Assembly: GCA_024635585.1 (NCBI GenBank)
Contig: JAGXIP010000093.1
Coordinates: forward strand, 1 to 43,089
DNA: 43,089 nucleotides
Direction of reading: 5' to 3'
DNA from: Saccharicrinis sp.
Lineage (GTDB): Bacteria; Bacteroidota; Bacteroidia; Bacteroidales; Marinilabiliaceae
Notes under the pieces: model-generated
What the model was told of the DNA's origin: nothing
Databases searched by the model: none
Seen by the model: only the letters and a program-made list of their open reading frames with translations
Shown here: in pieces, positions 924 to 40,921 of the stretch
Layout: each line of letters opens with the position of its first letter
Position numbering within the stretch: the first letter of the stretch is position 1
Position numbers and translations under genes: made by a program

Positions 924-944
924 CACACATAATTATTTAATTTG

Positions 945-8204: not shown

Positions 8205-8225
8205 TGATTGATTAGTATATTGAAC

Positions 8226-11200: not shown

Positions 11201-11660
11201 TATTTTAGCAGCAGCCGATGTAGATACTGATGTTACTTTTAAGGCTGGCGATAAAGAATTTCCCGTGAAAGTAGGTGGATGGGTTGGTAATTTAGGATGC
11301 TGGGACAACCGGGAATTTGAAGGATATGTTGCAGAAGTATCTTATTCTATGCGTAATAATTTAAAATCAATTAAACCTGCTTATATCCGTAACCAGCGTG
11401 TTGCATGGTTTGCCACTCACCACCATAGAACCAATGGCGATGCCTATTATGAGCATAGTTACATGTTTGCCTACAGGTTAGAAATACCCGAAGGCGCCAC
11501 AAGCATAACCCTGCCAAATTCTCGATTTATTCGCATTATGGCAATGAGTGTTGGCGACGAAGGCTACGCAAAAGCTTTACAATCGCCATTTGAAGATTTG
11601 CACCGCGATGGTGATTTCAACGAAAGGTTTGATAATCCACAAAAAACAGGTGCGTTATGA
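8226..11660 (+). CDS. GH38 alpha-mannosidase, secreted
   Basis: ATG 8226 is chosen (1144 residues); ATG 8244 would also leave a full signal peptide, which ends near AAIAQ. The GH38 catalytic domain opens with PYSHLDDIWRW, giving zinc ligands H67 and D69. The nucleophile is D180 in IPDCFGFS, and the third zinc-ligand histidine is H396 in RNQFHDNLPGTS. The alpha-mannosidase middle domain and the C-terminal beta-domain follow. After about residue 890 there is an extra ~230-residue beta-rich region of the kind often appended to bacterial GH38. Established: retaining zinc-dependent alpha-mannosidases. Inferred: exo-release of mannose from oligosaccharides in the periplasm. The stop overlaps the next start (ATGATG), showing translational coupling with the mutarotase relic. 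Confidence 0.88.
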   Translation: MKSQKIMNKLKRYKQCGIIAFTCVFIYLLTPAAIAQTTESTKQGIEAVAPCSIDLTKPTLFVVPYSHLDDIWRWSYVQTVRDYLKNTLDENFEAFEKYPNYTFNWSGASRYQMMQEYFPERYEELKKWVAAGRWYPAGSAWVETDVLVPSSELTIRQILVGNEFFQNEFGIGSSEFMIPDCFGFSYALPSILNHCGIRGFSTQKLTWNSANGIPFNIGRWVGPDGKGVLVALNAGNYAGEHTVDYTNDEATLERLRENEKLGGLPIDYYYFGGGDRRNNADRGGVIRQVNIENIEKMVGSDGPVKVISGKADLMFEAITDKQAERFPIWNKDLLLVQHSTGVLSSQAYTKKLNRDAELLADAAERAAVSAHLLNGSEYPQGAINKGWELALRNQFHDNLPGTSIPFAYEQGWNDGIIALNKFSGVYSDAIGTMAKSLNTDVPGIPVVVFNPLSIPRKDNVEAFIPDELANAGTLAVFNALGKEVLSQIITGFDSEKRILFKADLPPVGAAVYSIQEAKSKLSNSELIVRENYLENSFYKVSIDANGDISSIFDKKLDKELLEKPAQIEIGPDFPKNKPAWRIYWEDIKQPARSVASSPISVKIIEDGALRVAIEVIREVEGSTIVQRIRLSAGADGSRVEVENKVDWKTRGGLLKAAFHLTASAPKATYNIDLGVIQRENRHESQYEVPHHAWFDLTDSSGDYGVSILSGYKYGSDKVDDNTIRLTLIHGPDTKDSQQEVVDDGIMSEQRWQDWGRHEFTYAITGHKGDWAEGKTHWEAMRFEQRPAAFEVPKYKGNASSFSLFNVSNDQVNLQAVKMAEDGSGIVVRLQELQGKVSNCVTLSAKLPILSAEALDGAERARDVKYPIKKGKLSLDFTPFELKTIKLNIKGASAYAGLTKPVPLDYDADVISYNSNPEDGYDEFLMEERRDRSEGHKGSFDGKGGTYPGEMLGDKIKMGNVEFVLGPTGNTEYNAVECLGQEIKLPEGTKVLHILAAADVDTDVTFKAGDKEFPVKVGGWVGNLGCWDNREFEGYVAEVSYSMRNNLKSIKPAYIRNQRVAWFATHHHRTNGDAYYEHSYMFAYRLEIPEGATSITLPNSRFIRIMAMSVGDEGYAKALQSPFEDLHRDGDFNERFDNPQKTGAL

Positions 11661-17113: not shown

Positions 17114-19357
17114 ATGAATCAAGTTGTCAAAAAATTAGGAGCTTTTGTTTTCCTGTCTTTTTTTACTTTTGCAACATCTTTTTCGCAAGAAGATAACACA
17201 AAATACATAGATCCAACCATTGGGAATGTCGTGCCATTTTTGGTTCCCACATATCCAACTATGCATTTGCCTAATCAAATGATGCGGATGTTTCCGGTTA
17301 AGGAGGATTATCTTTCCGATCAGGTGGAGGCATTTCCGATGCAGGTCATCTCGCATCGTCGAGCAGGCATTCTTCAAATGAAAGTGAGTGTCGGGGAAAT
17401 TACGAAATCATCGTGGAATCAAAAAATGAATATTGACCACGATTTAGAAGTATATCATCCATGGTTGTATTCAACTTATTTAATCGATGATGACATCCGT
17501 GTTAGTTTTGCTCCCGGCGAAAAATGTGCAATCTACAAAATTGACTTTGCCGATAAGGATAAAAAGAACTTGCTAATAAAAGGTAGTAATGAAATGAAAA
17601 GCACTTTAAATGGTGGGATATTTACTTTTAAAGAGAAGACAGGGGAAACTACAAAAGGTTTAGATCCTAAAAAAATGACGGTTACAGCTTTTGTATATGG
17701 AGAACTGCGTGACACCGATAACAACTTGATTAAGAATGCTTTAATAGATATTGAAAAAGGGAAATTCTCCGTTACTTTTTCTAAATCTTCACCTACATCA
17801 ATTTTGGTCAAATATGCGGTTTCCTATGTCAGCCCAGAACAGGCAAAAATTAATTTTGAGAAAGAACTAACAAAAACCAGTTTTAACGATTTTGCCACTA
17901 CCGGGAAAAAAGCCTGGGAAAAGGTGATGAACCAGATTGAAGTGAAAGGCGGAACCGAAGCGCAAAGAAGAACATTTTATACCTCGCTCTATCGCACCTA
18001 TGAACGTATGGTTGACATTAATGAATATGGTAAATATTACGGATATGACGGAAAAGTACACGAAAGCAAGCGCCCGTTTTACGGGGACGACTGGATTTGG
18101 GACACTTACCGTGCCCAGCATCCTTTGCGAACCATTCTTAATCCTCAGATGGAAAACGATATACTCAACTCATATACTTTGATGTACGAACAAAGTGGCT
18201 GGATGCCAACTTTTCCCCAGGTATTTGGCAACCACATGTGCATGAACTCCTATCACACATCGGCCATTTTTATTGATGGATACCGAAAAGGGTTGAAGGA
18301 CTATAATGTTGAAACAGCTTATGAAGGGCTTAAGAAAAACCTCATGGAAGGAACTTTCATCCCTTGGCGACAAGGGACTCCGCGCCGCCCAATCGATGAT
18401 TTTTACCATACGAACGGCTTTTTTCCAGGGCTTCATCCGGGTGAAATTGAAACCGAACCACAAATGGATAGTTTTGAGAAACGCCAAGCCGTTGCAGTTT
18501 CACTTGGGATAAGTTATGATTTCTGGACTTTGGCAGAACTTGCAAAGGAATTGGACAAAAAGGAAGAATATAAATTATTCGCAAAAAAAGGTAATGACTA
18601 CAAAAACCTTTGGCACCCAGTCCGTCGACTGTTTATGCCAAAAGATGATAAAGGAAATTGGATTGACATCGATCCTAAATCAGCAGGAGGGAGAGGATAT
18701 CGGGAATATTACGATGAAAACAATGGATGGACTTACGCATGGGATGTACAGCATGATATTGATGGGTTAACGGATTTGCTTGGCGGTAAAAAGCCAGCGG
18801 AAGATCGTCTCGATCAACTTTTTAGAGAACCCCTCGGCATGAAAAAGAATGATTTTTACGTGAACGGTTCAAATTCAACGGGTATGGTTGGACAATTTTC
18901 AATGGGGAACGAACCATCATTTCATATACCCTATTTATACAATTATTTTGGGGCACCATGGAAAACCCAAAAGCGAACCCGCTTTTTGCTGGACGTGTGG
19001 TACAAAGATAATATTTTCGGCATGCCAGGAGATGAAGATGGTGGTGGGATGACCGCATTTGTGGTGTTTACCTCAATGGGCCTGTATCCTGTTACGCCCG
19101 GCCTGCCATTTTACGATATAACAAGTCCGGTGTTTGAGGAAATCACCATCAATTTAACTAACGGGAAGACGTTTACTGTTCGTGCCAAAGGAGCAAGCCG
19201 AACAAAAAAATACATTCAAAGCGCATTTGTTAATGGAGAGGAGATAAATAGTCCATTTATTACACACAGTCAAATTATGGCTGGCGGAACACTTGAGCTA
19301 ATCCTGGATGAACTTCCAAAAAAAGAGTGGGGAAAGGATGCCAAAGTTCCAGAATAA
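17114..19357 (+). CDS. GH92 exo-alpha-mannosidase (type I signal peptide)
   Basis: A 747-residue protein with a signal peptide ending near TSFSQ. The C-terminal core contains SMGNEPSFHIPYLYNY, GAPWKTQKRTRFLLD and MPGDEDGGGMTAFVVFTSMG, matching the GH92 catalytic domain in which Asp/Glu residues act with a calcium ion. The N-terminal lectin-like domain starts YIDPTIGN instead of the usual VNPFIGT. Established: GH92 are inverting, calcium-dependent exo-alpha-mannosidases. The protein is a clear paralog of the minus-strand lipoprotein at 38642, aligned almost along its whole length. Both belong to the same divergent branch, so they may act on a modified (for example sulfated) mannoside. Linkage preference is not readable. 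Confidence 0.85.
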   Translation: MNQVVKKLGAFVFLSFFTFATSFSQEDNTKYIDPTIGNVVPFLVPTYPTMHLPNQMMRMFPVKEDYLSDQVEAFPMQVISHRRAGILQMKVSVGEITKSSWNQKMNIDHDLEVYHPWLYSTYLIDDDIRVSFAPGEKCAIYKIDFADKDKKNLLIKGSNEMKSTLNGGIFTFKEKTGETTKGLDPKKMTVTAFVYGELRDTDNNLIKNALIDIEKGKFSVTFSKSSPTSILVKYAVSYVSPEQAKINFEKELTKTSFNDFATTGKKAWEKVMNQIEVKGGTEAQRRTFYTSLYRTYERMVDINEYGKYYGYDGKVHESKRPFYGDDWIWDTYRAQHPLRTILNPQMENDILNSYTLMYEQSGWMPTFPQVFGNHMCMNSYHTSAIFIDGYRKGLKDYNVETAYEGLKKNLMEGTFIPWRQGTPRRPIDDFYHTNGFFPGLHPGEIETEPQMDSFEKRQAVAVSLGISYDFWTLAELAKELDKKEEYKLFAKKGNDYKNLWHPVRRLFMPKDDKGNWIDIDPKSAGGRGYREYYDENNGWTYAWDVQHDIDGLTDLLGGKKPAEDRLDQLFREPLGMKKNDFYVNGSNSTGMVGQFSMGNEPSFHIPYLYNYFGAPWKTQKRTRFLLDVWYKDNIFGMPGDEDGGGMTAFVVFTSMGLYPVTPGLPFYDITSPVFEEITINLTNGKTFTVRAKGASRTKKYIQSAFVNGEEINSPFITHSQIMAGGTLELILDELPKKEWGKDAKVPE

Positions 19358-21151: not shown

Positions 21152-21242
21152 ATATGAAACGAGCCATGAGAGCGTCCTCACACAAAGGGGGAATGATTGT
21201 AATGGCGAGTTCCATGTGGCAAAAAAAATAAATTATAAACAC
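21152..21242 (+). promoter_or_regulatory. Leader element copy B, adjoining the sulfatase start codon
   Basis: Runs directly to ATG 21243. The same sequence, including AAATTATAAACAC immediately before ATG, precedes the GH92 gene on the minus strand (copy C). Possible pairing: GCCAT with ATGGC around an inner TGAG/CTCA stem. Conservation across a sulfatase and a mannosidase promoter argues for a shared post-transcriptional or transcriptional control, or for a mobile leader. Confidence 0.6.
21154..21231 (+). CDS. Possible 25-residue leader peptide
   Basis: ATG 21154 to TAA 21229-21231 encodes a short basic, methionine-rich peptide starting MKRAMRASSHKGG. In copies A and C the first 12 codons give MKRAMRVASHKG and MKRAMRVSSHKG, and most differences between copies fall in third codon positions (AGA/AGG, GTT/GTG, TCT/TCA). 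That favours translation of this first part. After codon 12 the G-run length differs and copies A and C stop early, so only the N-terminal dozen residues seem constrained. The stop lies 11 nt before the sulfatase start, compatible with translational coupling. Confidence 0.35.
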   Translation: MKRAMRASSHKGGMIVMASSMWQKK

Positions 21243-23933
21243 ATGAAACAATTTATCACCCTAGTATTATTAATAATCAGTTTTCTAATACAAGTAAATG
21301 CACAAGGAACTAGTGATAAGCCCAATATTATATTTTTTTCGGCTGATGATTTAAATACTAATATTAATCCACTAGGTTATACGCAAGCCAAAACGCCTAA
21401 TTTAGACAAGCTGGCCGAAATGGGTATTACCTTTACTAATGCCCATGCTCCAGGGGTATTTTGTGCTCCATCCCGTACAGCTATAATGACAGGCTTACAT
21501 GCCTCTACAACAGGATGTTATAACACTGAGGTGTACCATTACGATTACCCTGATTTAACCCCTTTGCATATGGCTTTTAGTAATAATGGCTATAAAGCTT
21601 ACGGAGCAGGTAAGTTGTTTCATCATAGAGCAGGTTTCATGGACCCCAGAGGATGGGAAGAGTTTTTTGCTCGTAGTCAGGAAATTAAAGATGTAGGTTA
21701 CGAAACGGGTTATTTTGGTAGTGATGTGCCCTACCCTGATCCACACCCATATAGTCCGTATTATACCAAAACCAACAATATAATTAACGATGGTGGTTTT
21801 TTGGAGTGGGGGCCTATCGCCAACGAAAAAGCCGAAGAAATACCAGATGCTATCTCCACAAACTGGGTTTGTGATTTGTTGCAGCAGGAACATACAGATC
21901 CATTTTTTATTGGGTTAGGACTATATACTCCGCACTATCCTAACTACGCCCCACAAAAGTATTTTGATTTATACAACAGAGATTTAATACAAGTTCCAGA
22001 ATTAAAAGTCGATGATTTGAATGATATTCCAAACCCGATGCGTCAGCAAATGATTAATCGAAGTAGAATTCAACAAACGCTGGAGGATATTGATGCTGTT
22101 AAAGATGCTATTATCGGCTATTTGGCCGCAGTTTCATTTGCCGACGCCATGTTAGGTCGGGTTTTAGATGCTTTGGAGGCTAGCGCATATAAAGACAATA
22201 CGCTAATTATTTTTTGGAGTGATCAAGGCTATCATCAAGGACAAAAAGGCAATTGGGGAAAACATACTCTTTGGCAGGAAACATCTCATGTTCCGCTAAT
22301 ATTTGCTGGAAATGGCTTACCTCAAAATAAAAAGGTAAATACAACAGTTAGTTTAATAGATATGTATCCAACCTTAGTCGATTTATGTCATCTCCCTGTT
22401 CAAAAGCAACTACTCGATGGAGAATCTCTTATATCTGTTCTGCAAGACCCCGCTTCTTCAACTGATAGAAATGTATTTTTACCTTCGCATGACAGGGGGA
22501 GTTACGCTGTTATTAACAAGGATTGGAAATACATCTATTACAACAATGGAACAGAAGAGTTTTACGATAAAAATAACGATCCTAATGAATGGTATAACCT
22601 AGCAGGTGATAATAGTTATAGAAGTATCATCATCGAAATGCAAAAATCAGCCCCAGCAGAGTTCCACCCTGGAGCAACCCCCCAATCAAGTTTAGAGTTG
22701 GTATTCGATAGTAATGGATTTTATCATTGGGAAAATAAAGATAAAAGTAAGCCAGCTAAATTTGTTGAAGCTTCAGTTGTTTTTTCGGATCCAATTACGG
22801 AAAAGAATATAGAATTTGTTGAAAACTCAAATTCTACGCAGGAATCATATACTATCCAAAGTAATAAAGCAGGTCAGTCCTGCAGGTATATACAGCACGA
22901 TAGACATGCCTACTTTAAGGTAAGTGATCAATTGTTTTCTATGGAGGATAATGAAATGATGCTTGAACTTACTTATTTCGACAATGGTACTAACTTGTTT
23001 AGTATGCAATACAATTCAACATCATCGGTAGTAAAAAGTATAGATATTTATAAAACAAATACTAACAAGTGGATTACCAAAGTATTTATGGTGACCGATG
23101 CGTCTTTTAATAATTTGCAAAATAATCAAGCAGATGTTAGAATAGGGGGAGAGGTATATATACGTTCGCTAGTCATTAAAAAACATATCGAATCATTAGT
23201 TTCAGTTACACTTACTAACAACATTATGGAAAATGGGATTGAATTTTTAATTGGAACCGATCCCAATAAAGAAACCTACACCCAAGCTGTAACGAAAGAG
23301 GACAATGAATGTCGTTTGATTCCTACACTTTCAGAAAAAACTAAATATGGATATTTTTCTGTGGATAATACCTTAATAACCAATGCTGATAATGAATTAG
23401 TATTTGAAATAACTTATTTAGATCAAGGTACTACCTCTTTACTGCTTAATTATAACAGCTTGAACGAAAAGTATGAAAAATTAGAGATTCCTAAAAATAA
23501 TACCAATAAATGGATGACAAGCGCTTTTTATGTTAATGATGCAGCTCTAAATAATTTACAAAATAATCAGTCCGACTTTAGGATAAGGGGGACTGAATAT
23601 ATTAGAAGAATTGCCCTAAGAAAAGGGGTGGATAATGAAGGTAATACCTCGTTAAGCCCTGAACAAGAATTGCATAGTCATATGTTGGTAAAGGTTCAGC
23701 CTGTTACTGGAGGAGCTAATATATCGGTTTCTAATGATTTAATTGGAGCCGATCTCTATGTTTACAATCTGATGGGAGTTTTGCAAAAGAGACAACAGGT
23801 TAATCAATCTGAGTTTTATATAGGGCTTGGTGTTCCTCAAGGCATTTATATTTTTGTTGTTCGCAGTGATAATGGTTTGGTGAGTAAAAAAGTTCTATTT
23901 TTGCAAAGGTGGAGTAAAAGTGCTGAAATATGA
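21243..23933 (+). CDS. S1 sulfatase (iduronate-2-sulfatase-like) with duplicated accessory domain and T9SS tail
   Basis: An 896-residue protein. ATG 21243 is chosen because the leader repeat ends there; a GTG at 21216 lies inside the leader. A signal peptide (about 1-20) is followed by a sulfatase domain (about 24-505) with SADDLN and VFCAPSR (C74 becomes formylglycine), WSDQGYHQGQKGNWGKHTLW and SLIDMYPTL. Two tandem ~130-residue beta-rich domains follow (about 513-645 and 655-790). Both share LTYFDxG/ITYLDxG, NTNKWIT/NTNKWMT and NNLQNNQ with the N-terminus of the GH99-like enzyme at 945. A T9SS type A domain closes the protein. The last residues RWSKSAEI read into a remnant of another gene. 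Inferred: extracellular desulfation with the accessory domains as glycan anchors. It is paralogous to the broken sulfatase at 14606. Confidence 0.85.
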   Translation: MKQFITLVLLIISFLIQVNAQGTSDKPNIIFFSADDLNTNINPLGYTQAKTPNLDKLAEMGITFTNAHAPGVFCAPSRTAIMTGLHASTTGCYNTEVYHYDYPDLTPLHMAFSNNGYKAYGAGKLFHHRAGFMDPRGWEEFFARSQEIKDVGYETGYFGSDVPYPDPHPYSPYYTKTNNIINDGGFLEWGPIANEKAEEIPDAISTNWVCDLLQQEHTDPFFIGLGLYTPHYPNYAPQKYFDLYNRDLIQVPELKVDDLNDIPNPMRQQMINRSRIQQTLEDIDAVKDAIIGYLAAVSFADAMLGRVLDALEASAYKDNTLIIFWSDQGYHQGQKGNWGKHTLWQETSHVPLIFAGNGLPQNKKVNTTVSLIDMYPTLVDLCHLPVQKQLLDGESLISVLQDPASSTDRNVFLPSHDRGSYAVINKDWKYIYYNNGTEEFYDKNNDPNEWYNLAGDNSYRSIIIEMQKSAPAEFHPGATPQSSLELVFDSNGFYHWENKDKSKPAKFVEASVVFSDPITEKNIEFVENSNSTQESYTIQSNKAGQSCRYIQHDRHAYFKVSDQLFSMEDNEMMLELTYFDNGTNLFSMQYNSTSSVVKSIDIYKTNTNKWITKVFMVTDASFNNLQNNQADVRIGGEVYIRSLVIKKHIESLVSVTLTNNIMENGIEFLIGTDPNKETYTQAVTKEDNECRLIPTLSEKTKYGYFSVDNTLITNADNELVFEITYLDQGTTSLLLNYNSLNEKYEKLEIPKNNTNKWMTSAFYVNDAALNNLQNNQSDFRIRGTEYIRRIALRKGVDNEGNTSLSPEQELHSHMLVKVQPVTGGANISVSNDLIGADLYVYNLMGVLQKRQQVNQSEFYIGLGVPQGIYIFVVRSDNGLVSKKVLFLQRWSKSAEI

Positions 23934-23960: not shown

Positions 23961-25205
23961 ATGAAAACTAATTTTATGAAAATTAATTTTATTTTTATCC
24001 TAATACTGTTCGGTTTCAACCTTTTGTATGCTTCCGAGTCAACAAGCATACAAAAATTTGATGTTAAACCTGAGAATAGGGCTGCGGTAAATAAAGTAAA
24101 CCTTCAAAAGGCTATTGACTGGGCATCGTCCAGTGGTTCTGCGCTTTGGGTCGAACCCTCTGAAGATCCGTACCCAATTGATGGCGGAATTATCCTGAAA
24201 AAGAACGTATCGCTGATTGGGGTGCATGGCCCTACTCCCCGCGGAACAGTGCACCCAACAAAAAAACAACCTGTGGGTAGTGTGTTCGCAATTACGGATA
24301 CAGAAAACGCTTTTATAACGGTAGAAACCGGAACTCAAATTAAAGGCATTCAGTTTTGGTATCCCGAACAAACCATTAAAGATCCTTTAGCCATTATTCC
24401 CTATAAGGCTACTATTCAGGTTTCAAAAACCAGTCGTGCGCAAGGTGTGTTCCTTTCGTGCCTTACCTTTTATGGCGAGTATTTAGCCTTCGATTTTAAT
24501 GCAAGTCAAAATAATGCCTGCGAATTAATGACCTTTGAGCATTGTTACGGATACCCCTTAAGTGGTGAATTTATCCGGATGAATTATTGTTACGATGTTC
24601 CACGTATTTTGCATTGTCATGTCAACCCTGCCGGACAGCGATACATTGGAGGTCAATACAGCCGTGCAGTTGTTGATGCTGTAATTGCCAAAAAAACATT
24701 TGCCTATACCATTAATAACACTGATAATGCACAAATTATCGACCTTTTTACTTTTGGTACTTATGGCGGAATTCTATTGGATAGCGAATCGTATGGGCAA
24801 TTAACCAACTTTAATTTTGATTGTGTTGCAGTGGGTATTTTGAAGCGGGGAAGCAACACGAAAAACCGGAACTGGCAAATTTCGCAAGGTTCAATTATTG
24901 CCAATACCGGCGAAAATGTAGAAGATATCCACCCAATAATCATCGAAGGTCAAGGGCATACCTCCCTTAGCAATGTGGAAGCTTTTTCGGGAGGGAATGG
25001 AGCCCTTACAGCAGTTCCTGAAAATATGTCGTGGGATTTTTTACTGGTAAGGGGCGACAAAAAATTAACCGTTTCTATTTGGGGCAGTCGGATGAGGAAT
25101 TACAAGTCAAACTCGCCCGTTAGTATTGTGAATAATCAGGCGGTTATTTATATGTCGGGTTGTTTTGATAAGGAGGAGAATTTATACAACAAAACATTTA
25201 ATTAA
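23961..25205 (+). CDS. Secreted pectate-lyase-superfamily beta-helix protein
   Basis: A 414-residue protein; signal peptide about 1-25, ending near LYASE. The start of the mature part (NRAAVNKVNLQKAIDWASSSGSALWVEP) with SLIGVHG is the N-terminal cap and first coils of the pectate_lyase_3/GH55-like superfamily. The rest alternates short strands with N/G turns (FNFDCVAVGILKRGS, NWQISQGSII). It has no T9SS tail and is not closely related to the beta-helix proteins at 5753 and 19437. Catalytic residues cannot be assigned. It lies between a sulfatase and the EEP gene, 20 nt before the latter. Possible role: lyase, hydrolase or epimerase on the same glycan. Confidence 0.6.
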   Translation: MKTNFMKINFIFILILFGFNLLYASESTSIQKFDVKPENRAAVNKVNLQKAIDWASSSGSALWVEPSEDPYPIDGGIILKKNVSLIGVHGPTPRGTVHPTKKQPVGSVFAITDTENAFITVETGTQIKGIQFWYPEQTIKDPLAIIPYKATIQVSKTSRAQGVFLSCLTFYGEYLAFDFNASQNNACELMTFEHCYGYPLSGEFIRMNYCYDVPRILHCHVNPAGQRYIGGQYSRAVVDAVIAKKTFAYTINNTDNAQIIDLFTFGTYGGILLDSESYGQLTNFNFDCVAVGILKRGSNTKNRNWQISQGSIIANTGENVEDIHPIIIEGQGHTSLSNVEAFSGGNGALTAVPENMSWDFLLVRGDKKLTVSIWGSRMRNYKSNSPVSIVNNQAVIYMSGCFDKEENLYNKTFN

Positions 25206-25225: not shown

Positions 25226-26149
25226 ATGATACAAAACATACAAGTAAAAAAGCTTTTCATACTAATTTACCTAATTGTGTTTTGCTCGTTCGGTTTTAAT
25301 TATTTGGCTGTTGGGCAGGTAGATAGTAGTAAAATCGCCTCTGTGAAGACATTGAAATTGATGACCTATAATATAAAGTTTGCCAGCCCAACGTATGAAC
25401 CGTCATGGGAAGTTCGCCGAGAAATGCAGGTAGATTTGATTCGAAAATACAAGCCCGATATTATTGGAACACAGGAAGGTTTAAAAGAGCAAATTGATTA
25501 GTTGGCCGAGCAACTTCCGGAATACGTGGTAGTTGGTGAAGGACGACAAGGAGGAGATAACGATGAACACATGGCTATCTTTATCAAACAGGATAAGTTT
25601 CGCCTGCGCGAGATGCATAGTTTTCAGCTTTCCGAAACTCCTGAGATAATAGGCAGCGGCCCTGAAGTAAATCCCCGAATGGTAACCTGGGTAAGATTGT
25701 CGCTTATTAAGATTCTTAACCAGGGTAAAGATGGTAAGTATCCGGAAGATTATCGTGGAAATTGGGAAAATACGCAGGAGTTATATGTTTTTAACACCCA
25801 TTACTTCAATGGAAGTAAAGATTCTTTGGCAAGGTTGAATGCATCCAAACTAATCCTGGAAAGGATCAATGCACTAAATCGGTTTGGGGCATGGACGCCC
25901 GAACGTCCGGTATTTTTAATGGGCGATTTTAATTGCCGCCCCGGCAGTGCACCCTATAATGTATTAGTTGGCAATAAAAATTCAACCGACCCTTATTTGC
26001 TCAAAAATTCGTTCGAAGATTTTAAAAAGATTGACTGGATACTTTATAAAGGCGCAATGAAAGTGCTGAAGTATGAAGAAGTGGATTACAATGTTAAAGG
26101 TGTATATCCATCAGATCATAAACCGATTTATGTAGAGTTTGAAATGTAA
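25226..26149 (+). pseudogene. Exported EEP-family (endonuclease/exonuclease/phosphatase) protein with internal TAG
   Basis: Read through a TAG at 25499-25501, the frame gives a 307-residue protein. A hydrophobic signal (about 10-30) is followed by LKLMTYNIKF, PDIIGTQEGL, a central NTHYFN, LMGDFNCRPGS and a C-terminal YPSDHKPIYVEF. These are the metal and catalytic motifs of the EEP (DNase I-like) fold (Asn, Glu, His, Asp-x-Asn, Asp-His). The stop falls at QID*LAEQLPEY, where a tyrosine or similar codon would be expected. No indel is involved, so it looks like a point nonsense mutation. Exported EEP proteins recur in Bacteroidota glycan loci and are thought to be phosphodiesterases or phosphatases; the substrate is unknown. 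Confidence 0.75.
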
Positions 26150-26254: not shown

Positions 26255-28900
26255 ATGAAAGTAGTTAAAAATACATTTATCGTTTTACTGGTAACTTTTT
26301 TCGTTACAGGATTAAGTTCTTTTACGAACAAGGAGCAACAAACAAAGCCTAAGAAACCCAATGTAATCATTCTTTTTGCGGATCAGCACCATAAAAAAGT
26401 GATGGGTTTTGAAGGACACCCCGATGTAATGACGCCTAATTTAGATAAGCTGGCAAAAGAAGCAGTTGTGTTTGACAGGGCCTATTGTACCACCGGTATT
26501 TGTGCACCTTCGAGGTCGTCGTTGATGTCTGGCTTGTACTCTCGTACCCTCGGATTACTTTCGAATGGTGAAGAAACAGAAGTAATGCGTGAGGTCGTGT
26601 CGCTGGCAACTGTTTTTAAACAGAACAATTACAATACCTATGCTTTTGGAAAACGCCATACATCGCAGGCTGTAGATGAGGGTTGGGATGTTCAGCGAAG
26701 CCATTTGTGCAATGAAACGCCTGGAAACAGCTATACCGAATGGGTAGAGAAAATGGGTTATGGAAAAGAATTTGCAAAAGACTGGGCGGCTGAATTTGGC
26801 AAAGGTTCAGGCTGTTCTTCCTATGCCAACGAAAAGCTTCCAATTGCCGACCTTGGAACCCGTGTTTCGGAGCTTCCGGAAAATATGACAATGGAAGCCT
26901 TCACAACCCAACTAACTGTTCAGATGATAAAAGACCAGGCAAAAAGCGACAAGCCATTCTTTTGCTGGGCTACATTTTATCGGCCCCATCAACCCTATAC
27001 GCCGTTGAAAAAATATATGGATATGTACGATGTGGCTGACTGGGGAAATGGCCGGAAAAATGGCGGCTCAATCAAGAAACCTGCTAGCCTTTACGAATCT
27101 AAAACCAATATTCCTCCGATGATGCAATCCATTCGCGATGGAGGTAATAAAGTTTGGAATGTTGATAAAGCCTATGCTGACGAACAACTCTGGCGAAATT
27201 ATATTGGCGCTTACTATGCTTTGGTCACCGAAGTGGATCATCGTGTAGGCCAAATTTTACAAGCTCTCGATGAAGCGGGCATTACAGAAGAGACTATCGT
27301 AATTTACACTTCGGACCATGGTGATTTTGTGGGTAATCACGGAATGGTTGAAAAGGCTGCTGCCGGGCAAAATGTTTACGAGGATATTTTAAATATCCCG
27401 TTGATTATCAGATATCCGGGGAATAAGGAAAATGGTAAACATATCGGTGAATTAGTAAGCCTTGTGGATATTTATCCAACCCTGGTTGAACTGCTCGGTT
27501 TAAAAATGCCAACCTTAAAAAATCCCTTACAGGGAGAATCTATGGTACAAACTCTTCTTTCGGGAAAGCCAATGGAAAGGGAATATTTTGTTTCCGAAAG
27601 TTGGTCCCAAGCCACCGTAATTACTAAAGATCAGAAATTGGGTATAATGCTCGACCCAACGGCACTTCATAAAAACTGGGATTTTCGCGCTTATGGCGAT
27701 ATGTTTTTCGATCGAAAAAAAGATTCGCTCGAAGTGGATAATCGAATTAAGGATTCGGCATACCAAAAAGATATTGCAAAGCTACTGGGGTATTATAACG
27801 AATTTGTAAGTAATACTCCTTCCACAGGTAAAGATGAAATGATTAATGAAAAATCAAATAAAGTGCAAAAGCCGATTAGTTTAGCCGTTGCCGGAATGTC
27901 GCACGGGCATATTTCTTTTATCCTAAAAAGGCCAGATAAAGGTGATTTTAAGTTGGTAGGCGTGTGCGAATCAAATCAAGAACTGTTAACAAGCTTGTCC
28001 GAAAAATATCAACTGAAACCCGAAATACAATACACCGAGTTGGAGAAGATGCTGGATGAGGTAAAGCCAGAAGCTGTGGTTGCCTTTGGCTCTGTTTTTG
28101 ACCATTTGGCGGTAGTTGAGGCTTGTGCGCCCCGTCATATTGATGTGATGGTGGAGAAACCGCTGGCCGTTAATATGATACATGCCAATCGGATGGCTCA
28201 ACTGGCCAAACAATACAATATTCAGTTATTAACCGATTACGAAACTTCATGGTATCCAACTACGGCTCAAACCATGAAAATGGTATTGGATGATAATTTT
28301 GTTGGCCCACTTCGCAAAGTAGTATTTCACGATGGACACAAAGGCCCGAAAGAAATTGGCTGCGACAAATATTTTTTAGAATGGTTAACGGATCCAATTC
28401 TTAATGGAGGAGGTGCTATCGTTGATTTTGGTTGTTATGGAGCCAATCTTATGACCGTGCTTACAAAAGGAGAAAAGCCAATTTCGGTTACAGCGGTTAC
28501 CCGTCAGTTTAAACCTGAGATTTATCCAAAAGTTGATGATGATGCGACCATTATCGTTTCCTATCCCCAATGGCAATGCATTATTCAGGCTTCGTGGAAC
28601 TGGCCGTTTAACCGAAAAGACATGGAGGTTTATGGCACAACCGGATACGTGATAGCCGATAATAAAAACGACTTACGAATACGGAATTCCGGAATGAAAG
28701 CGGAAGAAGGACAGCAAATTACTGCCAACATGGTGGCTGTTTACGAGGATCCTTTTGCCTATTTTGCCGATGTTATCCACAAAAAAATTCAAGTTGAACC
28801 CTTTGGATTGTATTCGCTCGAAAATAATGTTAGGGTTGTCGAAATCCTTGATGCAGCCAGGCAATCAGCCAAAACAGGGGAGACTGTAGTATTTAAGTAG
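26255..28900 (+). CDS. Sulfatase fused to a Gfo/Idh/MocA-type oxidoreductase
   Basis: An 881-residue protein in a single open frame. A signal peptide (about 1-23, no lipobox) is followed by an S1 sulfatase (about 34-525) with FADQHHKK, TGICAPSR (C83), YTSDHGDFVGNHG and SLVDIYPTL. After a ~20-residue polar linker, a Gfo/Idh/MocA module (about 542-881) has a degenerate dinucleotide motif AVAGMSHGHI. It also carries the EKPLA motif (about 634-638) and the usual C-terminal sheet domain (GGGAIVDFGCYGANLM). Established: exported Gfo/Idh/MocA proteins include NAD-dependent glycosidases such as GH109, which hold NAD tightly. Inferred: one chain may desulfate and then act on the same sugar by an oxidation-based mechanism. 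An alternative is recent loss of a stop codon between two neighbouring genes. Confidence 0.85.
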   Translation: MKVVKNTFIVLLVTFFVTGLSSFTNKEQQTKPKKPNVIILFADQHHKKVMGFEGHPDVMTPNLDKLAKEAVVFDRAYCTTGICAPSRSSLMSGLYSRTLGLLSNGEETEVMREVVSLATVFKQNNYNTYAFGKRHTSQAVDEGWDVQRSHLCNETPGNSYTEWVEKMGYGKEFAKDWAAEFGKGSGCSSYANEKLPIADLGTRVSELPENMTMEAFTTQLTVQMIKDQAKSDKPFFCWATFYRPHQPYTPLKKYMDMYDVADWGNGRKNGGSIKKPASLYESKTNIPPMMQSIRDGGNKVWNVDKAYADEQLWRNYIGAYYALVTEVDHRVGQILQALDEAGITEETIVIYTSDHGDFVGNHGMVEKAAAGQNVYEDILNIPLIIRYPGNKENGKHIGELVSLVDIYPTLVELLGLKMPTLKNPLQGESMVQTLLSGKPMEREYFVSESWSQATVITKDQKLGIMLDPTALHKNWDFRAYGDMFFDRKKDSLEVDNRIKDSAYQKDIAKLLGYYNEFVSNTPSTGKDEMINEKSNKVQKPISLAVAGMSHGHISFILKRPDKGDFKLVGVCESNQELLTSLSEKYQLKPEIQYTELEKMLDEVKPEAVVAFGSVFDHLAVVEACAPRHIDVMVEKPLAVNMIHANRMAQLAKQYNIQLLTDYETSWYPTTAQTMKMVLDDNFVGPLRKVVFHDGHKGPKEIGCDKYFLEWLTDPILNGGGAIVDFGCYGANLMTVLTKGEKPISVTAVTRQFKPEIYPKVDDDATIIVSYPQWQCIIQASWNWPFNRKDMEVYGTTGYVIADNKNDLRIRNSGMKAEEGQQITANMVAVYEDPFAYFADVIHKKIQVEPFGLYSLENNVRVVEILDAARQSAKTGETVVFK

Positions 28901-28945
28901 GGTAAGAGTAAAGTGTTATTTTATCATTTAAAAATTAGTTTGACA

Positions 28946-30874
28946 ATGAAAAATAAGGCATTTATATTTATTGGTTTAAGCTTATTATCTTGGTCTTGTT
29001 TTGGCATTATGAATTCCATAGGCCAGGCTATTGCACAGGGCAAACCAAATATTATTCTGATCATGACTGATGATCAAAGTCCGTTCCCGTTTGAAACTGC
29101 AACAGTAAACCAATCACGTCCTTTTGGTTTCAATGGCGACAGTCATGTTTATACCCCCAATATTGACAAACTTGCAAATAATGGTTTGGTATTTACCCAA
29201 GCTTATGTTTCCACTGCGGTTTGTTCGGCCAGTAGGTACACCACGCTTACCGGTCGTTATGCCGGCAGGTGCGAAGGAGCTTCCTTTATGCAGCAATTTC
29301 CGAAAGGTGAATTTGCACGCGTTGAAAACAACACCGAACTGGAAGAAACACGGGAGAATTTGCCACGTCTTTTGCAGGACGCCGGTTACCTCACCGGCTT
29401 TGTTGGGAAAAGTCATGTTGTCGATCATTATCTGTTAGGAGCCAGTTTAACAGGAGATTATGGTTTTATGAAGGTGGCTCAAAATGCTGATCCAAATGTT
29501 CCCGAAGTGTCAACTGCAATGGCTTTTAATCATGGATATTGGGTTAAGCGCATAAAGGAGTTTGGGTTCAATTATGTAAATGCCGTATATGCCGCTAATT
29601 TGAAAGAATTGAATAATGATTCGTTGAATGTGCATAATGTGGAATACAAAAACAAGGCTGCTCTTGAGTTTATCGACCAATGTGGTAGCGAACCATTTTT
29701 CCTTTACTACAGCGAGAATGTTCCTCATGGACCTGCGCCCTGGGTTAAATCAAACGGGAAATATAAAAATGGCTTAGATGCCAATCCGAAATTTACTTCG
29801 AAAGGATATGTTGATGCAGAATATAGCTATTTGCCTTCCAGAGAAGAGATTAAACAAGATGTGTTGAATCATGGCAAGGATTTGAATCATGCATGGTTGC
29901 GATGGTTTGATAATGCTGTAGGCGCAGTTGTTGATAAGTTGAAAGAAAAAGGAATACTTGAAAATACGGTGATTATTATTACCTCTGATCATGGACAATA
30001 CAATAATGGCAAGGCCACAAATTATGAGGGAGGAGTAAAAATACCTCTTATGGTGTATTGGCCGGCAGGTATTTCATCCGGGTCAACATACGATGAGCTG
30101 GTTCAAAATATTGATTTTGCACCCACTTTTTTAGACTTGGCAGGGATTGATCTTTCGGGTAAAACTTCCCTTGATGGTGTGAGTTTGAAAAATGTTTTAT
30201 TGGGTTGTCAAAAATCGCCGGTACATGATTGTTTATTCTACGAAATTGGTTTTACACGTGCTGTGAGAACAAAAAAATGGAAATATATTACCGTAAGGTA
30301 TGATGATGCAACAAATGCTAAAATTGCAAAAGGTGACAAATTCAATGGGTTTAATGGAGAATTGTTGGATTTTCCTTATTATGTAAAAAATGCTCATTTG
30401 GGGTATCATGCTGCTAAAAATAATCCACATTATTTTGAAAGCGATCAATTATATGATATGGTCAACGACCCCATGGAGTCAACTAATTTGTTCGACTCAA
30501 AACAAAGTGAGGTTGTTGCATTGAAACAAAAATTAACTGGTTTATTACAGTCGTTTTCGGAAAGACCCTATGCCGAATTCAGCGATGGCAAAACTATTGC
30601 TTTGGGATTAGCAGATGTAAAAGAGGAATGCACAACAAAAGAAGTTCTGAAAGTTTTTCCAAACCCATCAAAATCTACTTTTTACATTGAGTTGCCGGAA
30701 AGCAATGATATACCATTATACACTATTTATAATTTTGAAGGAGCAGTAATCGAAAAAGGAAAATTAGATCGCTGTATTTCAAGTGTTCGGTTGGACAGGG
30801 TTTCTAAGGGAAGTTATATCCTACGCATAACTTCAGGAGCAAACACCTTTATTCGTCAGTTATTTTTAAACTGA
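28946..30874 (+). CDS. S1 sulfatase (CSASR variant) with T9SS tail
   Basis: ATG 28946 is preferred over the upstream TTG 28913 because it opens directly into the signal sequence (642 residues). The sulfatase domain (about 33-535) has ILIMTDDQS, then TAVCSASRYTTLTG with C93 as the formylglycine site. The usual CxPSR is here CSASR, an accepted variant of the sulfatase signature. ITSDHGQYNNGKATNYEGGVKIPL and NIDFAPTFLDLAG follow. The C-terminal ~75 residues (VFPNPSKSTFYIEL to the end) are a T9SS type A domain. It is a different subfamily from the sulfatases at 14606, 21243 and 26255. Inferred: cell-surface or secreted desulfation of a distinct position on the glycan. Confidence 0.85.
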   Translation: MKNKAFIFIGLSLLSWSCFGIMNSIGQAIAQGKPNIILIMTDDQSPFPFETATVNQSRPFGFNGDSHVYTPNIDKLANNGLVFTQAYVSTAVCSASRYTTLTGRYAGRCEGASFMQQFPKGEFARVENNTELEETRENLPRLLQDAGYLTGFVGKSHVVDHYLLGASLTGDYGFMKVAQNADPNVPEVSTAMAFNHGYWVKRIKEFGFNYVNAVYAANLKELNNDSLNVHNVEYKNKAALEFIDQCGSEPFFLYYSENVPHGPAPWVKSNGKYKNGLDANPKFTSKGYVDAEYSYLPSREEIKQDVLNHGKDLNHAWLRWFDNAVGAVVDKLKEKGILENTVIIITSDHGQYNNGKATNYEGGVKIPLMVYWPAGISSGSTYDELVQNIDFAPTFLDLAGIDLSGKTSLDGVSLKNVLLGCQKSPVHDCLFYEIGFTRAVRTKKWKYITVRYDDATNAKIAKGDKFNGFNGELLDFPYYVKNAHLGYHAAKNNPHYFESDQLYDMVNDPMESTNLFDSKQSEVVALKQKLTGLLQSFSERPYAEFSDGKTIALGLADVKEECTTKEVLKVFPNPSKSTFYIELPESNDIPLYTIYNFEGAVIEKGKLDRCISSVRLDRVSKGSYILRITSGANTFIRQLFLN

Positions 30875-34896: not shown

Positions 34897-34992
34897 CATC
34901 TTAATATCAATAGTTGGATAGCTAATGGTGTGTATATTGTACTTGTTGTTTCTGAAGGCAAACAAGATTTTGCAAAAGTAGTTGTTAATTAA
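34897..34992 (+). pseudogene. Remnant of a T9SS sorting domain
   Basis: In the frame starting at 34897, NINSWIANGVYIVLVVSEG...DFAKVVVN followed by TAA is the C-terminal strand pair of a type A sorting domain. It abuts the truncated SusC, so two unrelated gene pieces are joined by deletion. The bases between 34993 and 35128 show no gene. Confidence 0.65.
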
Positions 34993-35128: not shown

Positions 35129-36538
35129 TCATTTTTGCTTGCTCTGACCGTCAGTAATCGATTTTTCAAAATCTTTATAATCCTGCAGCAGCTCTTCAAC
35201 TATTTGAGGTAGAGAATCGGATAAATCGTTACGCTCGGCTTTATCTTTATTCAAATCGAACAATTGAATATCCTTCGATGATTCCTCCGGCACCAGTCCG
35301 GGATATTGTGCAGGTGTGGCCTGCTCCATAGGTGCTATTATCGTTGTGCCGTCGGGTCCCCGTGGGTCTATCCAATCCAATGGCAGGCGCTTGTACCGTG
35401 GCTTATTGACAAACATTTTGTATTTGCCCTTTCTAACCGACATGATACGATCCTCGATCATGCTAAAGATAGGGGCATGTACTTTTTGTTTCCCTCTCAG
35501 CACATCTGTTATATCTACTCCGTCGAGCGTATTGGAATTGGCGGGGTGCACACCTGTTAACGACAGTAGCGTAGGATAAATATCCGGCGACCAACAGGGC
35601 ACCCCAATTTGGGTGCCGGGAGCAAAGACCTCCGGGTAGCGGATAATAAAAGGCACCCTTATGCCGCCTTCCCACGTTGTGGCCTTCATTCCTTTTAAGC
35701 CACCCGTACTGCCTCCGTACCAAGGCCCATTGTCCGACATAAATATTACGATGGTATTGTCCAAAATACCGAGGTCATCCAATTTATTGAGCACCTCGCC
35801 CACCGACCAATCCAACTCTCTCATCACATCGGCATATAAATCATCCTTAGTTTCGGGTGTGTAAAATCTTTCGGAAGCGGCCAATGGTTTGTGCGGCATA
35901 GCGTGGCACAGATGGAGGAAAAAGGGCTTGTTCTTGTTACGGGATATAAAATCAATGGCTTTATCGGTGTACCGTTTGGTAAGAAGACTTTGATCCACGG
36001 GGTATTCAACCGTATCTCGGTCTTCCACAATTTGAACGGGGCGCATATCGTTGGAGTACAAAATACCGTAGTACTCATCGAAACCATGGTTCACGGGGAA
36101 AAATTCTTCCTTATGACCCAAATGCCATTTGCCGATCAATTTGGTCGCATATCCGGCTTCTTGAAAAACTTCACCCAGTGTTATCTCGCTGTCGGGAATG
36201 CCCACATCATCGATGCCGGCATCGGGAGTAGGATTTTGAATGACCTTGTGCCTTAACGGAAAACGCCCAGTTAACAAAGTGGCACGCGATGGGGCGCAAT
36301 ATGGTGTAGGCACATAAAAATCGGTACACTTTACTCCTTCATCCGCCAATTTATCTATTTGCGGCGTGCCATAACTATTCTGTCCATAGCTCGAAATATC
36401 GCCATAGCCCATGTCATCAGTAAGGATGATGAGCACGTTGGGTTTGGGTTTTTCAGTATCTACCGAAGAGCTGCAGGAAGTGCCCATTAGCGCAAAGAGG
36501 ATAGATGCAATCAGGATGTTTATGGTTTGTGTTTTCAT
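35129..36538 (-). CDS. S1 sulfatase lipoprotein (arylsulfatase A-like)
   Basis: A 469-residue protein with a type II signal peptide (lipobox ending LMGTSC, C22), so it is likely anchored in the outer or inner membrane facing the periplasm. The domain has LTDDMGYGD, YCAPSR with C81 as formylglycine cysteine, GKWHLGH, and SDNGPWYGG. This is the classic arylsulfatase A arrangement and a different subfamily from the plus-strand sulfatases. It is the last gene of the minus-strand cluster. A TTAGGGG tandem lies just upstream of its start. Confidence 0.88.
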   Translation of the reverse strand: MKTQTINILIASILFALMGTSCSSSVDTEKPKPNVLIILTDDMGYGDISSYGQNSYGTPQIDKLADEGVKCTDFYVPTPYCAPSRATLLTGRFPLRHKVIQNPTPDAGIDDVGIPDSEITLGEVFQEAGYATKLIGKWHLGHKEEFFPVNHGFDEYYGILYSNDMRPVQIVEDRDTVEYPVDQSLLTKRYTDKAIDFISRNKNKPFFLHLCHAMPHKPLAASERFYTPETKDDLYADVMRELDWSVGEVLNKLDDLGILDNTIVIFMSDNGPWYGGSTGGLKGMKATTWEGGIRVPFIIRYPEVFAPGTQIGVPCWSPDIYPTLLSLTGVHPANSNTLDGVDITDVLRGKQKVHAPIFSMIEDRIMSVRKGKYKMFVNKPRYKRLPLDWIDPRGPDGTTIIAPMEQATPAQYPGLVPEESSKDIQLFDLNKDKAERNDLSDSLPQIVEELLQDYKDFEKSITDGQSKQK

Positions 36539-38641: not shown

Positions 38642-40921
38642 TTAATTACCGTAAACCGGTACAATTGGGTTTTTACCCCATTCGGTGTTTGGTAACTCAC
38701 CAAGTTCCAGTTCGAGCGTAGCGCCCGCCATAATTTGATCGTGAGTTATAAAAGGACTACTTATCTCTTTTCCGTTAATATAGGCCTTTTGTATGTACTT
38801 GTTCTTTTTGCTGGCTCCTTTGGCAATCACTTTAAAAGTTAGACCATTCTGGAGCTCAACGGCCACCTCTTCAAAAATGGGACTGGTAATCGTGTAATAA
38901 GGTTCTCCGGGCACAACCGGATAAATCCCCATGGAGGTAAGGACCACAAATGCAGTCATGCCACCACCGTCTTCGTCGCCCGGAATGCCAAAAATATTGT
39001 CTTTGAACCATACGTCCAGCAAAAAGCGTGTGCGCTGTTGTGTTTTCCAGGGTGTGCCAAAATAGTTGTACAAAAAGGGGATATGGAAAGAGGGTTCGTT
39101 GCCCATGCTAAACTGGCCTACCATTCCGGTAGAATTGGAACCATCCACATAAAAACTTGATTTATTTGTCCCCAACGACTCTCTAAATAATTGATCTAAT
39201 CGGGCTGATGCCGCTTCTTTTCCACCTAATAATTTTGTTAAGCCTTCAATATCATGCTGCACATCCCAGGCGTAGGTCCATCCGTTGTTTTCGTCGTAAT
39301 ATTCCCTGTAGCCCAGGCCACCATCCAATTTAGGATCAATATCCAGCCAGTTCCCTTCTTCGTCCTTTGGGATAAACATCCTGTGTTTTTCGTTCCAAAG
39401 GTTTTTATAGTCATTGGCGTGAGGTGCATACTTCACGACATCGGATTGTAGCTTCAGTTCCTTGGCCAATTCCGTCATAGCCCAAAAATCATAACTCATA
39501 CCCAGGGTAACTGACACAGGTTGTCGTTTTTCAAAACCGTCCATCATAGGCTCCGTCTCTTCCTGACCCTTTGCCAAGGAGGGGAAGTAACCGTTCCTGT
39601 GAAAGAAATCGTCGATCGGCCTGCGTGTAATACCTTGACGCCAAGGGATAAATGTACCCTCGGTCAAATTCTTTTTGATGCCTTCATAAGCCTTTTCCAC
39701 ATTATAATCCCTTAATCCCTTTCGGTAGCCATCGGTAAAAATAGAAGCCGAATGATATGAATTCATGCACATGTGATTGCCGTGTACCTGCGGAAAGGTG
39801 GGCATCCAACCGCTTTGCTCATACATTAAGGTATAAGAGTTAAGTATGTCGTTCTGCATTTTAGGATCCAGTATGGTGCGCAAAGGATGGTGGGCACGAT
39901 AGCTGTCCCACACCCAATCATCCACATAAAAAGGACGTTCACTCTTGTGTACCTTTCCGTCGTAGCCACTGAAATACTTACCGTACTCGTTAATGTTTAC
40001 CATACGTTCGTAAGTGCGGTACAGCGAAGTGTAGAACGTCCTCTTTTGCGCCTCTGTTCCTCCTTGGACTTTTATCTGCGAAACGGTGTGCTCCCATATA
40101 TCTTTTCCTTTGGTCAGCACCTCGTCAAAACTGTTTCCTTTTAGTTCCTTATCAAAATTCATTTTAGCTTGATCGGCGCTCACATAGGAAACCGCATACT
40201 TTACCACAACAGTTTTACTTGCCTCATCCGGAATTTGGATGGTTAGTCTTTCGCCATCGGCATTCACTTTTGCAGCTTTGATAAGCGCATCGTTTTCATC
40301 CAGAATTTGGGCATAAACATAGGTTGACATGACGCGCGTTACCGATTCTGTCCCTCTGGTTGTATATTTTAACTTGTCCTCCAGCATTAACTCGCCCTCC
40401 TTAAATTCACTTTCCAAATCGGGTGTTGCCTGCAAAAGTATGCTCCGTTGTTTTGTTTGTTCAAAATCAATTTTGTAGATAGCCGAACGAGCCGAAGGGA
40501 CAAAGCTTACCCGGATATGATCATCAATGAGATAGGTGGAGTAATGCCAGGGATGGAATACCTCCAAATCGTGATCGATGAACATATTTTTTTTCCATGA
40601 ATCCGCTGTCACCTCACCTTGCACTATCTTTAATTGGTACAAGCCGTAATCCCGGTGCTTAGCCACAATGAGCGGGAAAGCCTCTATCTGATCGGTGAGA
40701 TAATCATATTTGACAGGGAACATACGCAACATCTGGTTGGGCAGGTGTATGGTTGGATAAGTTGGCTTCAGGAACATGGCCACATTTCCGATAGTTGGAT
40801 CAATGTAGTCTGTGTTATTCGGTGAGGAAACATTATCATGCTGAGTGCAACTCAATAAAAAAATGCCAAGCACTAAAACCAATACATGCTTTGTTCTATA
40901 AATATTATTAATAAATTTCAT
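38642..40921 (-). CDS. GH92 exo-alpha-mannosidase lipoprotein
   Basis: A 759-residue protein with a type II signal peptide (FLLSC, C25). N-terminal domain YIDPTIGNVAMFLKPTYPT and catalytic core SMGNEPSFHIPFLYNYFG, IPGDEDGGGMTAFVVLTSMG match the paralog at 17114 nearly end to end. Both keep the acidic cluster of GH92. Established: calcium-dependent inverting exo-alpha-mannosidases. The main difference from the paralog is membrane anchoring. Leader copy C adjoins its start codon, so it probably shares control with the sulfatase at 21243. 177 bases separate it from the downstream TIM-barrel gene, where no gene is seen. Confidence 0.86.
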   Translation of the reverse strand: MKFINNIYRTKHVLVLVLGIFLLSCTQHDNVSSPNNTDYIDPTIGNVAMFLKPTYPTIHLPNQMLRMFPVKYDYLTDQIEAFPLIVAKHRDYGLYQLKIVQGEVTADSWKKNMFIDHDLEVFHPWHYSTYLIDDHIRVSFVPSARSAIYKIDFEQTKQRSILLQATPDLESEFKEGELMLEDKLKYTTRGTESVTRVMSTYVYAQILDENDALIKAAKVNADGERLTIQIPDEASKTVVVKYAVSYVSADQAKMNFDKELKGNSFDEVLTKGKDIWEHTVSQIKVQGGTEAQKRTFYTSLYRTYERMVNINEYGKYFSGYDGKVHKSERPFYVDDWVWDSYRAHHPLRTILDPKMQNDILNSYTLMYEQSGWMPTFPQVHGNHMCMNSYHSASIFTDGYRKGLRDYNVEKAYEGIKKNLTEGTFIPWRQGITRRPIDDFFHRNGYFPSLAKGQEETEPMMDGFEKRQPVSVTLGMSYDFWAMTELAKELKLQSDVVKYAPHANDYKNLWNEKHRMFIPKDEEGNWLDIDPKLDGGLGYREYYDENNGWTYAWDVQHDIEGLTKLLGGKEAASARLDQLFRESLGTNKSSFYVDGSNSTGMVGQFSMGNEPSFHIPFLYNYFGTPWKTQQRTRFLLDVWFKDNIFGIPGDEDGGGMTAFVVLTSMGIYPVVPGEPYYTITSPIFEEVAVELQNGLTFKVIAKGASKKNKYIQKAYINGKEISSPFITHDQIMAGATLELELGELPNTEWGKNPIVPVYGN

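Follow-up and report, generated by a model that had tools for sequence, protein, structure and literature searches.

The fused gene and its two enzymes

We analysed a 43,089-nucleotide stretch of Saccharicrinis sp. (contig JAGXIP010000093.1, assembly GCA_024635585.1; hereafter the window), taken from a genome of 310 contigs, 4.85 Mb and 90.54% completeness. We observed that the gene at 26255..28900 on the forward strand is a single open frame with an ATG start, 881 residues and no internal stop, and that it encodes an S1 sulfatase and a Gfo/Idh/MocA oxidoreductase, both intact, as one chain. The features of this fused gene are as follows.

26255..28900 (+): the fused gene as a whole (881 aa)
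26255..26344 (+): residues 1-30, Sec-like signal for export at the N-terminus, without lipidation Cys and without twin arginine
26357..27784 (+): S1 sulfatase, residues 35-510 (Sulfatase and SGSH_C); Pfam and fold matches
26501..26515 (+): CAPSR, residues 83-87, presumed formylglycine signature; motif
27824..27859 (+): residues 524-535, the final sulfatase helix, aligned to the C-terminal end of the stand-alone paralog
27860..27874 (+): joint, residues 536-540; without the stop codon and signal peptide of stand-alone oxidoreductases
27875..28897 (+): Gfo/Idh/MocA oxidoreductase, residues 541-881; Pfam, module model and fold matches
27893..27910 (+): GMSHGH, residues 547-552, nucleotide loop of the subfamily type; motif and alignment
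28154..28162 (+): EKP, residues 634-636; its Lys aligns with the EKP Lys of GFOR and AAOR
28424..28438 (+): DFGCY, residues 724-728; GFOR and AAOR both have DIGIY here, with their Tyr aligned to Tyr728

The Pfam matches above cut-off covered both halves. They were Sulfatase (residues 35-415, 3.2e-50, 171.6 bits), SGSH_C (361-510, 2e-11) and Phosphodiest (3.9e-8), whose fold is related to that of sulfatases, followed by GFO_IDH_MocA (556-659, 3.2e-12), GFO_IDH_MocA_C3 (672-799, 5.8e-17) and GFO_IDH_MocA_C (706-878, 1.5e-6). The first half is an S1 sulfatase by both its fold and its CxPxR signature (CAPSR). It also carries GKRH (132-135), PHQPY (244-248), SDHGD (353-357) and GMVEK, which may supply the further Lys, His and Asp residues of an S1 active site. 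In the oxidoreductase half we found AGMSHGH (546-552), EKP and DFGCYG (724-729).

AlphaFold2 predicted the full chain as two folded domains, with a mean predicted local distance difference test score (pLDDT) of 89.0 and a predicted template modelling score of 0.76 (64-row alignment). The pLDDT was below 50 at residues 298-300 and at residues 359-374, a poorly modelled stretch that adjoins the SDHGD motif. The best fold matches of the sulfatase half were 6pt6 (PsS1_NC) and 6hhm (S1_7), with identities of 19-26% among the 50 matches listed. Three FGE-sulfatase family matches in the genome score above cut-off, and no radical-SAM sulfatase maturase above cut-off was found in it.

By a simple hydropathy rule the N-terminus of the chain is strongly hydrophobic, and it has no twin arginine. 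No sorting domain of the type IX secretion system (T9SS) was found at the C-terminus. As the signal is Sec-like and lacks a lipidation cysteine, and the T9SS tail is missing, the fused protein is probably soluble in the periplasm.

The joint and the search for other fusions

In the AlphaFold2 model, the last sulfatase helix ends at residue 535 and the first Rossmann strand begins at residue 541, so that about five residues link the two enzymes. A sulfatase paralog in the same genome terminates in TPATGKNEMIQQKQN followed by a stop. At the joint the window reads TPSTGKDEMINEKSN and then KVQKPISLAVAGM, the point at which the mature part of the stand-alone oxidoreductases begins, after their signal-like N-termini. 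The hydropathy near the joint is 0.58 as against 2.69 at the N-terminus, which indicates that no internal signal peptide is left. A frameshift or a miscalled stop at the joint could be ruled out, as the signal peptide and spacer are missing rather than read through. Since a complete sulfatase passes directly into the mature start of the oxidoreductase, no single miscalled base gives this joint.

We also considered that two genes had been misjoined in a draft genome. The number of contigs, the absence of the fusion from other genomes and the interruption of two other genes in the window would all fit such an artefact. However, the junction keeps the reading frame and coincides precisely with the mature start, and the GC contents of the halves are similar (0.414 for the sulfatase, 0.422 for the oxidoreductase). 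A misjoin with another contig of this genome was rejected: it holds no second close oxidoreductase copy, the nearest others being just 56% and 41% identical. Furthermore, the genes flanking the joint on either side belong to one conserved cluster, which makes an assembly chimera unlikely. We regard a misjoin as highly improbable, and the gene fusion is very probably genuine.

We then looked for the fusion in other genomes, scoring the best five candidates per genome in the order for the oxidoreductase, the best three in the order for the sulfatase and the best eight in the phylum; the family, order and phylum genome sets overlap. The window's gene was the only fused one among nine oxidoreductase matches in 71 family genomes, 27 in 393 order genomes and 34 in 247 phylum genomes; in the family search, one match (G069) begins at the extreme end of a contig, with its upstream region outside the view. 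Among 126 oxidoreductase-matching frames in the collected loci, the four that were fused were the window's own gene and its three overlapping copies. No fusion occurred among the best 80 of 554 loci from the named genome collection, and a further search that scored the best two candidates per genome gave a weak negative. With the sulfatase half, all seven other matches in the 393 order genomes were unfused frames of 536-566 residues, one of them the same-genome paralog.

A phage or plasmid origin was rejected, since none of 72,556 plasmid and 50,697 phage records covered at least 80% of the fused protein and no viral contig matched it. We found no published sulfatase-Gfo/Idh/MocA fusion in a literature search whose scope excluded most subscription journals. 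The fusion is thus unique so far; the two kinds of enzyme that it combines, and the kind of cluster that it lies in, are already known.

A sequence-only reading of this DNA had described one exported chain in which a complete S1 sulfatase continues into a Gfo/Idh/MocA module carrying EKP. The frame, the Pfam matches and the motifs bear this out, and the module is complete as well. That reading would have been refuted by homologs that are always two genes together with a stop codon between the domains here. The homologs seen are indeed all separate genes, but no stop codon lies between the domains in this gene.

The oxidoreductase module and its relatives

The canonical GxGxxG/A nucleotide loop is absent from the module, and the whole subfamily has GxxHxH in its place. 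We observed G-x-x-H-x-H in all 79 stand-alone relatives counted; L028, a relative outside this count, does not have the first Gly. A signal-like hydrophobic N-terminal extension was present in 77 of the 79 by the same hydropathy rule, the two without it (L102 and L112) coming from Anaerolineaceae and Anaerolineales metagenome-assembled genomes. Just two of the 79 contain RRx-hydrophobic, neither of them a clear twin-arginine translocation (Tat) signal. Export through Sec-like signals therefore appears to be general in the GxxHxH subfamily, which occurs in 32 of the 247 sampled phylum genomes (the window's genome counted). We found no publications on this subfamily, though no search was aimed at it alone. 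The stand-alone proteins have their own signal-like N-terminus and no attached sulfatase; an example is that of Draconibacterium orientale (L050, 74% identity), which falls in the same clade of eight as the fused module.

The module consists of a Rossmann half and an alpha/beta C-terminal half, as judged from Pfam and fold, and its model alone has a pLDDT of 93.4. As the Pfam models for both of these halves score above cut-off, we place it in the Gfo/Idh/MocA superfamily as a loop variant. In profile searches GenD2 (6nor) came first (1e-18), with AAOR and GFOR second to fourth (4e-18 to 5e-17). In the fold ranking AAOR (5a02) and GFOR (1ofg, 1h6d) chains took ranks 1-7, whereas GenD2, which acts in another pathway and whose matched stretch begins behind the nucleotide loop, appeared from rank 15. 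The closest NCBIfam model was the D-xylose 1-dehydrogenase Gfo6, also a C1 enzyme, but its score of 62.9 bits stayed far under the cut-off of 350.

In the module, the Lys of EKP and the Tyr of DFGCY align with their counterparts in GFOR and AAOR, and the Tyr takes the place of a His. Tyr or His is generally the catalytic base in these enzymes, and AAOR tightly binds NADP that is regenerated within the cycle (PMC9795676). AAOR and GFOR are likewise exported Gfo/Idh/MocA proteins, but they are single-domain, have another nucleotide loop and share only about 20% identity with the module. They are also described as Tat substrates (PMC4628093), whereas the fused chain looks Sec-exported. As the Tat signal is missing, we term the module GFOR/AAOR-like and not a member of that group.

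Could the module be a non-catalytic part that binds sugar or acts as a scaffold? Its loop departs from GxGxxG, as does that of the whole subfamily, and Sec-like export offers no obvious cofactor supply. Yet EKP, the Asp and the Tyr are invariant in 30 aligned members, which is a better fit to catalysis, and we consider a non-catalytic role very unlikely. An acidic residue after the second strand, module Glu38, is nearly invariant in the same alignment.

We also examined whether the module might act as an NAD-dependent glycosidase in the manner of GH109, cleaving a sulfated or desulfated mannoside without net redox. A glycosidase next to a sulfatase would fit, and the GH109 enzyme of B. theta (BT4243) is periplasmic and lies within a Bacteroidota cluster (PMC11992087). 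The NAD-dependent glycoside hydrolase 8qc2 stood at fold rank 38, so that a glycosidase is compatible with the fold alone. However, GH109 itself (6t2b) matched only in its N-terminal, Gfo-type Rossmann half (profile positions 30-142, 4.6e-6), and GH109 membership was rejected. The GH92 and GH38 genes of the cluster described below already cover alpha-mannosides. We think a glycosidase quite improbable.

These results revise several points of the sequence-only reading. It had taken AGMSHGH for a modified motif, which turns out to be the rule of the subfamily, and had thought the export of an NAD-type enzyme unexpected, although stand-alone relatives throughout Bacteroidota carry signal-like N-termini. 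GH109, its closest precedent, gives way to AAOR and GFOR by both profile and fold. On the whole, its interpretation is partly supported.

The gene cluster and the proposed function

The fused gene lies among the following cluster genes.

8208..11660 (+): GH38
17114..19357 (+): GH92
21216..23933 (+): sulfatase with T9SS tail (Pfam/NCBIfam)
23961..25205 (+): 414-aa protein without Pfam match, retained beside these genes in G244, G329 and G200
25226..26149 (+): endonuclease/exonuclease/phosphatase family gene, broken by an in-frame TAG
28913..30874 (+): sulfatase with T9SS tail; in G200 its relative is the next gene after the sulfatase orthologue
35129..36538 (-): sulfatase
38642..40921 (-): GH92

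Counting the fused gene, the window has five sulfatase genes (14606, broken; 21216; 26255; 28913; 35129), together with two GH92 genes and one GH38 gene. A mannose-6-phosphate-isomerase-like protein scored below the NCBIfam manA cut-off and above the Pfam MPI cupin cut-off. The cluster appears designed for the digestion of a sulfated polysaccharide rich in mannose.

The two broken genes deserve mention. The sulfatase gene at 14606-16155, related to that at 21216, is frameshifted across two frames near 15620 and has an intact relative in G200. In the phosphatase-family gene, the next one on the upstream side of the fusion, the TAG lies at 25499-25501, and intact relatives occur in G244 and G329.

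We examined the neighbourhoods of the relatives for links between the two enzymes. The sulfatase orthologue of G244 lies 6.6 kb from a same-subfamily oxidoreductase (51% identity), on the same strand and in one cluster, which also contains the 414-residue protein. G329 shares with the window the consecutive order of 414-residue protein, phosphatase-family protein and sulfatase. In both G329 and G397 the sulfatase orthologue is immediately followed by a gene (L144:10318-11622; L142:6887-8194) for a different Gfo/Idh/MocA enzyme with a twin-arginine-like RRSFV N-terminus. These pairs, together with the fused gene, indicate that the adjacency of sulfatase and oxidoreductase arose with two different oxidoreductases.

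Besides the window's own genome, six of 392 order genomes have the sulfatase orthologue, 23 the oxidoreductase and four both. The 414-residue partner was found in 9 of the 23 oxidoreductase-bearing genomes as against 16 of the 392 overall, all of these counts being uncorrected for relatedness. Its relatives in the 16 genomes are 59-86% identical, and several stand beside GH92, sulfatase or oxidoreductase genes; the protein is an unstudied marker for these clusters. In the window's own genome, another oxidoreductase gene of the same broad group (41%) is followed by a sulfatase gene within about 20 bases (L025:9421-12175).

A GH92 gene is the immediate same-strand neighbour of four of the seven stand-alone members of the closest clade (L050, L051, L053 and L020). 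L055 has no adjacent GH92, and L052 and L054, which are included in the count and lie on short contigs, show none. None of the remaining 87 loci has an adjacent GH92, L056 having one 4 kb away. Beyond this count of 94 loci, L030 (52%) and L049 (42%) have a GH92-like neighbour, so the adjacency is not confined to the closest clade. The mannoside substrate suggested from the sequence alone is strengthened by these neighbours and by the GH92 and GH38 genes of the window. The lactonase link drawn from a nearby SMP-30-like protein fared worse, since this protein scored 24.4 bits against a cut-off of 26.3.

We compared the two halves with their relatives for signs of decay. The tree of 30 oxidoreductases places the window half with the seven stand-alone proteins (support 100/99), and its terminal branch of 0.26 is the second shortest of the eight (clade mates 0.25-0.43). 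In the sulfatase tree the window half groups with three orthologues (98/100) on a terminal branch of 0.16, within the range of 0.14-0.42 across seven orthologues. The nonsynonymous distance (Ka) to the nearest relatives (L142-L144 for one half; L050, L051, L053 and L020 for the other) was 0.19-0.22 for both. The proportion of synonymous differences was 0.66-0.77, near saturation, so that Ka alone was usable and dating of the fusion by Ka/Ks was given up. There is no sign that either half is decaying or speeding up.

These data bear on whether two independent enzymes were simply joined by a chance deletion, with no benefit. The fusion is a single known case and two adjacent genes are broken, which points to a locus in flux or to sequence errors. 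On the other side, both halves retain their motifs without acceleration, and the two families share clusters and genomes elsewhere. We consider a chance joining rather unlikely, while giving it real weight.

We propose instead that the fused protein is a periplasmic enzyme that desulfates and then oxidises a mannose-type sugar by means of a retained nicotinamide cofactor. Among the readings weighed here it is the one we favour, tentatively and at somewhat less than an even chance. The chain would be exported by Sec, and the sulfatase Cys would be converted to formylglycine. The sulfatase would strip sulfate from a mannose-type sugar or oligosaccharide, and the GFOR/AAOR-like module, with its bound nicotinamide cofactor and using Lys635 and Tyr728, would oxidise the same sugar. 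Oxidation would most likely take place at C1 and yield a lactone; C1 is preferred over C3 as the nearest enzymes by fold are C1 enzymes. The cofactor could be re-oxidised by a second sugar or another carbonyl acceptor, so that free NAD would not be needed. The fusion would keep both steps in one place in a 1:1 ratio. We infer the substrate, the cofactor and the position of oxidation.

A precedent for this architecture is PbSulf1-GH195 of Polaribacter, likewise an S1 sulfatase joined to a sugar-active enzyme in an alpha-mannan cluster with GH92 (PMC13063451). Its counterparts in Ochrovirga are two separate genes, and desulfation comes first in that sulfated alpha-mannan cluster (PMC13063451). 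Its second domain is a glycoside hydrolase, and it has a T9SS domain (PMC13063451), whereas the chain described here has an oxidoreductase and no T9SS tail. As 'oxidoreductase' and 'Gfo' do not appear in the main text of PMC13063451, it serves as a precedent for the architecture and not for the oxidoreductase.

Several observations weigh against a desulfating and oxidising enzyme. A sulfatase lies within 6 kb in just 6 of 94 stand-alone oxidoreductase loci (some with shorter flanks), which makes a sulfatase partner the exception. The relatives examined yielded no second fusion, which leaves selection for the joined state unproven, and two cluster genes are broken. No convincing lactonase was found near the fused gene in the window. 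At about 20% identity the reaction cannot be carried over from AAOR and GFOR, and the best profile match, GenD2 (with NAD), belongs to gentamicin biosynthesis and not to periplasmic C1 oxidation of sugars. The apparent difference between Tat export in AAOR and GFOR and a Sec-like signal here leaves the loading of the cofactor unexplained.

An alternative is oxidative glycoside cleavage, in which the module would oxidise C3 of the desulfated mannoside and other enzymes would break the 3-keto glycoside by elimination or hydrolysis. ThuA and xylose-isomerase-like barrel proteins are linked to the 3-keto route; the G244 cluster has a ThuA protein (94.9 bits), and such a barrel protein is present in the window and in the G200 cluster. 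Profile and fold matches include glycoside C3 oxidisers such as DgpA and glucuronide-3-dehydrogenase, and the nearest solved chains of the different Gfo/Idh/MocA enzyme in G329 are 8tdf and 8tdh. However, the C3 enzymes rank below AAOR and GFOR. A DUF1080 domain (3keto-disac_hyd), for which a link to the 3-keto route is published (PMC9007349), has a weak match in the G244 cluster, which stays under its cut-off (18.1 against 26.8 bits). Oxidation at C3 thus seems to us a credible but unlikely course.

If desulfation followed by oxidation is correct, a single protein converts a sulfated sugar to an oxidised one. The fusion of normally separate genes hints that their products act jointly, and it connects an exported oxidoreductase subfamily with desulfation and with the cleavage of alpha-mannosides. 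It is of value because it points to the role of this widespread subfamily. We would go as far as to suggest, as a doubtful generalisation, that Bacteroidota may regularly use exported, cofactor-retaining sugar oxidation in alpha-mannoside breakdown, through the widespread GxxHxH proteins, exported by Sec and not by Tat, with the fusion exposing desulfation as the partner step. If the module does work in the periplasm, it raises the question of how a Sec-exported Rossmann enzyme gets and keeps its nicotinamide cofactor.

We also noted some further genes of the window. The gene of the xylose-isomerase-like barrel protein (37557-38464) may be split, as Pfam matches it only from profile position 103 onward and its start is overlapped by a second frame. 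The proteins at 942-3506 and 31787-33460 are 33% identical to a GH99-like protein of the Draconibacterium locus L050; the GH99 label is tentative, since the L050 protein itself scores 29.3 against the Pfam GH99 cut-off of 33. At 34200-34904 there is a TonB-receptor plug fragment of 234 aa, 36% identical to part of a 1027-residue protein of G433, and this is apparently a truncated SusC-like gene.

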